From: Nitrosopumilaceae archaeon
GTDB lineage: Archaea > Thermoproteota > Nitrososphaeria > Nitrososphaerales > Nitrosopumilaceae
Length of the DNA: 61,189 nucleotides
NCBI GenBank assembly: GCA_011523285.1
Contig: WTHC01000039.1
Location: 1 to 61,189, forward strand
Reading direction: 5' to 3'
Positions 35,929-36,186 of this stretch are shown here, in pieces; the first letter of the stretch is position 1, and each line of letters begins with the position of its first letter. The notes beneath the pieces were generated by a model. The model saw only the letters and a program-made list of their open reading frames with translations. It had not been told where the DNA came from and did no database searches. The position numbers were made by a program, and so were the translations under genes.

Positions 35929-35944
35929 TATTTTGGATTTTATA

Positions 35945-36017
35945 TGGGCCGAGAGAGATTTGAACTCTCGATCATTGCCGTGTCGAGGCAATATCATACC
36001 AGCTAGACCATCGGCCC
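35945..36017 (-). tRNA. tRNA-Val (anticodon GAC)
   Basis: 73-nt cloverleaf read on minus strand: acceptor GGGCCGA/TCGGCCC, anticodon stem TTGCC/GGCAA with loop TCGACAC, T-arm GAGAG-TTCAAAT-CTCTC, discriminator A. Confidence 0.9.
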
Positions 36018-36091
36018 ACAATATACTATATAAGATATACAATATTAAATTTTGACGGAAATATTATTAAATAATCAAAATGTTTTTTATT

Positions 36092-36186
36092 GGGCTGGTG
36101 GCGCAGAATCAAAAATTGATGCGAATAATGGATAGCGTGGTAACCTCCTAAGTTACAGGTCGAGGGATCGAAGCCCTCCTAGCCCG
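36092..36186 (+). tRNA. tRNA-Arg (anticodon CCT), with probable D-loop intron
   Basis: Acceptor GGGCTGG/CTAGCCC (one G:U), anticodon stem GTAAC/GTTAC with loop CTCCTAA, T-arm GAGGG-ATCGAAG-CCCTC; about 20 extra nt between G15 and G18G19. Confidence 0.9.

Follow-up and report, generated by a model that had tools for sequence, protein, structure and literature searches.

The window (the whole 61,189-nt stretch of DNA analyzed, lying in contig C47 of the Nitrosopumilaceae-type draft assembly G000, which comprises 826,649 bases and is 93.7% complete) carries at 36092-36186 on the forward strand a tRNA-Arg(CCU) gene with an insert in its D-loop. The stems can be read directly from the sequence, and the insert segment is apparent from the 23 nt (36107-36129) that separate G15 from G18G19. 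The features of the gene are listed below; three-digit positions, here and throughout, are offsets from 36000.

36092..36186, + strand: tRNA-Arg(CCU) gene, of 95 nt with the intron and 75 nt after its excision
36092-36098/36179-36185, + strand: acceptor stem GGGCTGG/CTAGCCC (from the sequence)
36092..36106, + strand: 5' exon, ending at G15 (from empty-site orthologs)
36101..36104, + strand: 5' D-stem strand GCGC; partner is the intron before splicing (central helix of the bulge-helix-bulge, BHB) and 36135-36138 after it
36105..36107, + strand: 5' bulge AG/A, predicted cut after 36106; position 107 is A in 86/89 intron versions
36107..36126, + strand: intron of 20 nt, separating tRNA positions 15 and 16 (from empty-site orthologs, in silico excision and pair counts)
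36108..36120, + strand: inner hairpin of the intron, 108-112/116-120, with covariation (G-C / C-G / A-T) at pair 108-120
36121..36124, + strand: GCG(A), the central-helix strand contributed by the intron, which mimics the 3' D-stem strand (from pair counts)
36125..36127, + strand: 3' bulge AT/A, with a predicted cut following 36126; all 89 intron versions have A at position 125
36127..36186, + strand: 3' exon, beginning AAT-GGATA (D-loop 16, 17, 17a, then G18 G19; from empty-site orthologs and in silico excision)
36135..36138, + strand: 3' D-stem strand GCGT, able to pair with 36101-36104 once the intron is gone
36140-36144/36152-36156, + strand: anticodon stem (from the sequence)
36147-36149, + strand: anticodon CCT, within the anticodon loop CTCCTAA (from the sequence)
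36162-36166/36174-36178, + strand: T-stem GAGGG/CCCTC (from the sequence)
36186, + strand: discriminator G (from the sequence)

ARAGORN and Rfam (at the gathering threshold) both miss this gene, the neighboring tRNA-Val(GAC) being their sole match. With the insert removed in silico, ARAGORN calls a tRNA-Arg(cct) of normal 75-nt length, and a pattern search of the whole assembly returns one match to CTCCTAA plus the T-loop, which makes the gene single copy. An earlier note on this DNA had proposed a D-loop intron in an otherwise intact tRNA-Arg(CCU) gene, and this is borne out by the intact stems, the ARAGORN call, and the empty-site orthologs described below. The tRNA-Val(GAC) gene is itself intact and lies on the opposite strand (35944-36018, -), upstream of the tRNA-Arg gene at a distance of 73 bases.

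We located the limits of the intron by comparing relatives with and without it, as the earlier note had suggested. Intron-less orthologs from the window's own family (L036, L037, L038, L039, L055, L116, L120, L133, and L149) and from Nitrosocaldus (L119 and L140) read GCGCAG-CAT, -TAT or -CTT-GGATAGCG (GCGCAG-YAT/CTT-GGATA) at the empty site, and intron-bearing orthologs read GCGCAG/AGTC...GACGCGNAA/CAT/GGATAGCG. Because these empty sites fix the junction at 36106/36126, we assign the intron to 36107-36126. The predicted mature D-loop of the window gene is then AG-AAT-GGATA, its 3' exon starting with AAT as in Nitrososphaera-type relatives, with the 3-nt spacing between G15 and G18 that all intron-less orthologs have. 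Since A107 and A127 are the same base, cuts at 106/126 and at 107/127 yield identical products, and 108-127 is an equivalent reading. Both boundaries are fixed while intron length ranges from 14 to 31 nt across the 89 distinct intron versions collected. G15, the last base of the 5' exon, is the position that carries archaeosine in archaeal tRNAs.

Counting pairs over the 89 versions reveals a conserved motif with a central helix of 36102-104/36121-123 and an optional fourth pair, 101-124. Pairs 102-123, 103-122, 104-121, 108-120, and 109-119 are each present in 88 of 89 versions, and weaker ones follow at 110-118 (84/89), 111-117 (68/89), and 101-124 (45/89; a G-A mismatch in the window). The pair at 108-120 is G-C in 66 versions, C-G in 19, and A-T in 3, and its 88 paired versions compare with a mean of 55.3 and a maximum of 66 of 89 in 2000 shuffles, which ignore relatedness. 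C-G marks a second family, and A-T is found in the window's genus as well as in L099, whose intron is otherwise of the common Nitrosopumilus type; because of these separate settings, the base change at this pair probably reflects more than one event. Of random 23-mers drawn at window composition, about 0.26% form three central base pairs and at least four inner ones over a 3-nt 5' bulge, and the comparative evidence (conserved insert, covariation, and empty-site orthologs) is far stronger than this chance-fold figure. The BHB geometry of a central helix with two 3-nt bulges is thus present, with cleavage at the bulges predicted. An outer exon-exon helix, which the earlier note had called not obvious, is absent: positions 36100/36128 are G/A and 36099/36129 are T/T, and nearly all relatives have AT or TT at positions 128-129. 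The motif is therefore of the relaxed HBh' type, outside the strict hBHBh' definition.

Folding energy and comparison favor different registers. The earlier note had paired CGCA with TGCG, leaving bulges GAA and AAT and an 18-nt intron at 36108-36125, which would give a 5-nt D-loop alpha region. Folded by itself, the window sequence scores best, by a small margin, in this register (-27.2 kcal/mol, versus -26.7 kcal/mol for the conserved one), and ARAGORN also accepts the 18-nt excision product. However, its pair A105-T120 is available in 3 of 89 versions versus 88 of 89 for 108-120, and G15 and G18 are separated by 3 nt, not 5, in every intron-less ortholog; on these pair counts and empty sites we rejected the 18-nt excision, and we consider the reading as a whole very unlikely. 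The junction had appeared to be a puzzle because that register is one base off: the conserved register and the standard cut rule remove 36107-36126 and leave a D-loop as long as that of the intron-less orthologs, so the puzzle disappears, and the alternative 3' cut that the note had considered, after 36127 (with the 5' cut after 36107), stands as a route to the same product.

It is extremely unlikely that the segment is instead retained, as an enlarged D-loop tolerated in a working tRNA. The D-stem is able to form with the insert in place (-25.1 to -26.1 kcal/mol, at best 0.6 kcal/mol worse than the BHB), but the conserved, covarying BHB geometry competes with that very stem, orthologs with precisely empty sites exist, and the insert varies in length between fixed boundaries. 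A decayed tRNA pseudogene that acquired an insertion by chance might be suspected from the failure of common tRNA finders, yet it is scarcely conceivable for a gene that is the genome's sole tRNA-Arg(CCU) match, has every stem intact, and shares its structure with more than 100 relatives. Taken from the window sequence alone, the BHB fold appears marginal; the competing folds lie within about 2 kcal/mol, so the register is decided by comparative evidence, not by folding energy. The comparison settles the junction and accounts for the failure of simple tRNA finders to detect the gene.

We are therefore highly confident, from the sequence comparisons, that the locus specifies a functional tRNA-Arg(CCU) with a 20-nt intron at 36107-36126, predicted to be spliced through the relaxed BHB by an (alpha-beta)2 endonuclease and a ligase. 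Before splicing, GCGC of the 5' D-stem would pair with the copy-like strand in the intron, and a short hairpin would form within the intron, together making a BHB that lacks the outer helix (relaxed HBh' type). The (alpha-beta)2 splicing endonuclease would then cut each 3-nt bulge behind its second base, exon joining would fall to a ligase (RtcB is the candidate), and the D-stem strand thus released would pair with 36135-36138 to form a normal D-arm; we infer cleavage, ligation, and the order of these events. Retention of the intron through evolution as a processing checkpoint, with a decoy helix for the 5' D-stem strand and the bulged G15 (the archaeosine site) beside the cut, seems to us unlikely; if it held, D-arm folding and G15 modification would occur only after, or necessarily before, splicing.

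BHB cleavage falls between bulge bases 2 and 3 (PMC4307357), and relaxed motifs need a broad-specificity endonuclease (PMC6379350, PMC4090602), for which a loop lysine of EndA is required (PMC6379350). We find two PF01974 proteins in nearly all sampled genomes of the family. With residues assigned from alignments, the alpha subunit of the congener G001 has the catalytic Y/H/K and aligns its counterpart of the A. pernix EndA loop lysine K44, and the beta subunit lacks the catalytic His; over almost its full length, this alpha subunit can be aligned with the (alpha-beta)2 EndA of A. pernix (3p1z), which carries the crenarchaea-specific loop. The likeness holds for the congener, since the alpha subunit gene, present in G001 and G002, was not found in the 93.7% complete window assembly, which we take as a gap of this fragmented draft. 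The only splicing endonuclease subunit found there is of the beta type, at G000:C2:8653-8907, and RtcB is present, split over two contigs. From its first ATG, the frame of this beta subunit spans 117 aa, compared with 187 aa in G001.

Non-canonical BHB introns are known from Crenarchaeota and Thaumarchaeota, and those of S. tokodaii tRNA-Glu and A. pernix tRNA-Thr(UGU) are likewise short D-arm introns whose borders with the exons form a BHB or a relaxed BHB that is cut between the second and third bulge bases; cleavage with EndA has been shown for the former (PMC4307357). The present case differs in the tRNA and in the site (15/16 of tRNA-Arg(CCU)), and in being known from sequence alone. tRNAscan-SE 2.0 models thaumarchaeal non-canonical tRNA introns, of which 107 are counted, from the same phylum and of the same class as the tRNA-Arg(CCU) intron; the passages of its main text consulted do not single out a D-loop intron in tRNA-Arg(CCU) (PMC8450103). 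The intron is very probably among those that tRNAscan-SE 2.0 detects in Nitrosopumilus-type genomes and, given that thaumarchaeal model, probably already catalogued in reference genomes. A limited literature search retrieved no published description of it, an absence that proves little. The evidence well supports an ordinary, well-conserved non-canonical archaeal tRNA intron of a known class.

We further traced the intron across relatives. In a family sample of 140 genomes, the tRNA-Arg(CCU) gene is readable in 124, of which 120 have the intron and G007, G016, G033, and G104 lack it; G020 and several other genomes of genus g19 are also intron-less (minus-strand matches there were partly checked). 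All 20 readable genomes of the second family, probably Nitrososphaeraceae, have an intron of different sequence at the same site and with the same geometry, and none was found in the orthologs compared from Nitrosocaldus and more distant archaea. Presence is mixed within genus g15 (G069 with; G016 and G033 without) and within g19 (G036 and G072 with; G020 and G104 without). On the simplest reading of these sequences, the intron would have been gained before the two families split and then precisely lost several times, in some cases within a genus. It would thus be old, common to two families of ammonia-oxidizing archaea, and repeatedly lost, with a pairing that must compete with the D-stem; the 89 natural variants and matched empty sites offer a test bed for relaxed-BHB recognition and archaeal tRNA intron loss.

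In 9 of the 89 versions (among relatives including L024, L032, L034, L108, L185, L207, and L208), the intron closes with GCGCAG and exactly repeats, in direct orientation, the end of the 5' exon; deletion between these repeats might be how the intron is precisely lost. Apparent intron-less matches in G014, G165, G167, G175, and G184 were discarded, the repeat having caused a short match to be reported. In part of g19 (L039, which is G020, and others) the anticodon loop is TTCCTAA rather than CTCCTAA, a C32-to-U change seen here only in intron-less tRNA-Arg genes. Genomes of the window's genus (G000, G001, and G002) are only about 0.8 Mb, compared with 1.1-3.2 Mb in other sampled family members, and the genus nonetheless keeps archaeal amoA.
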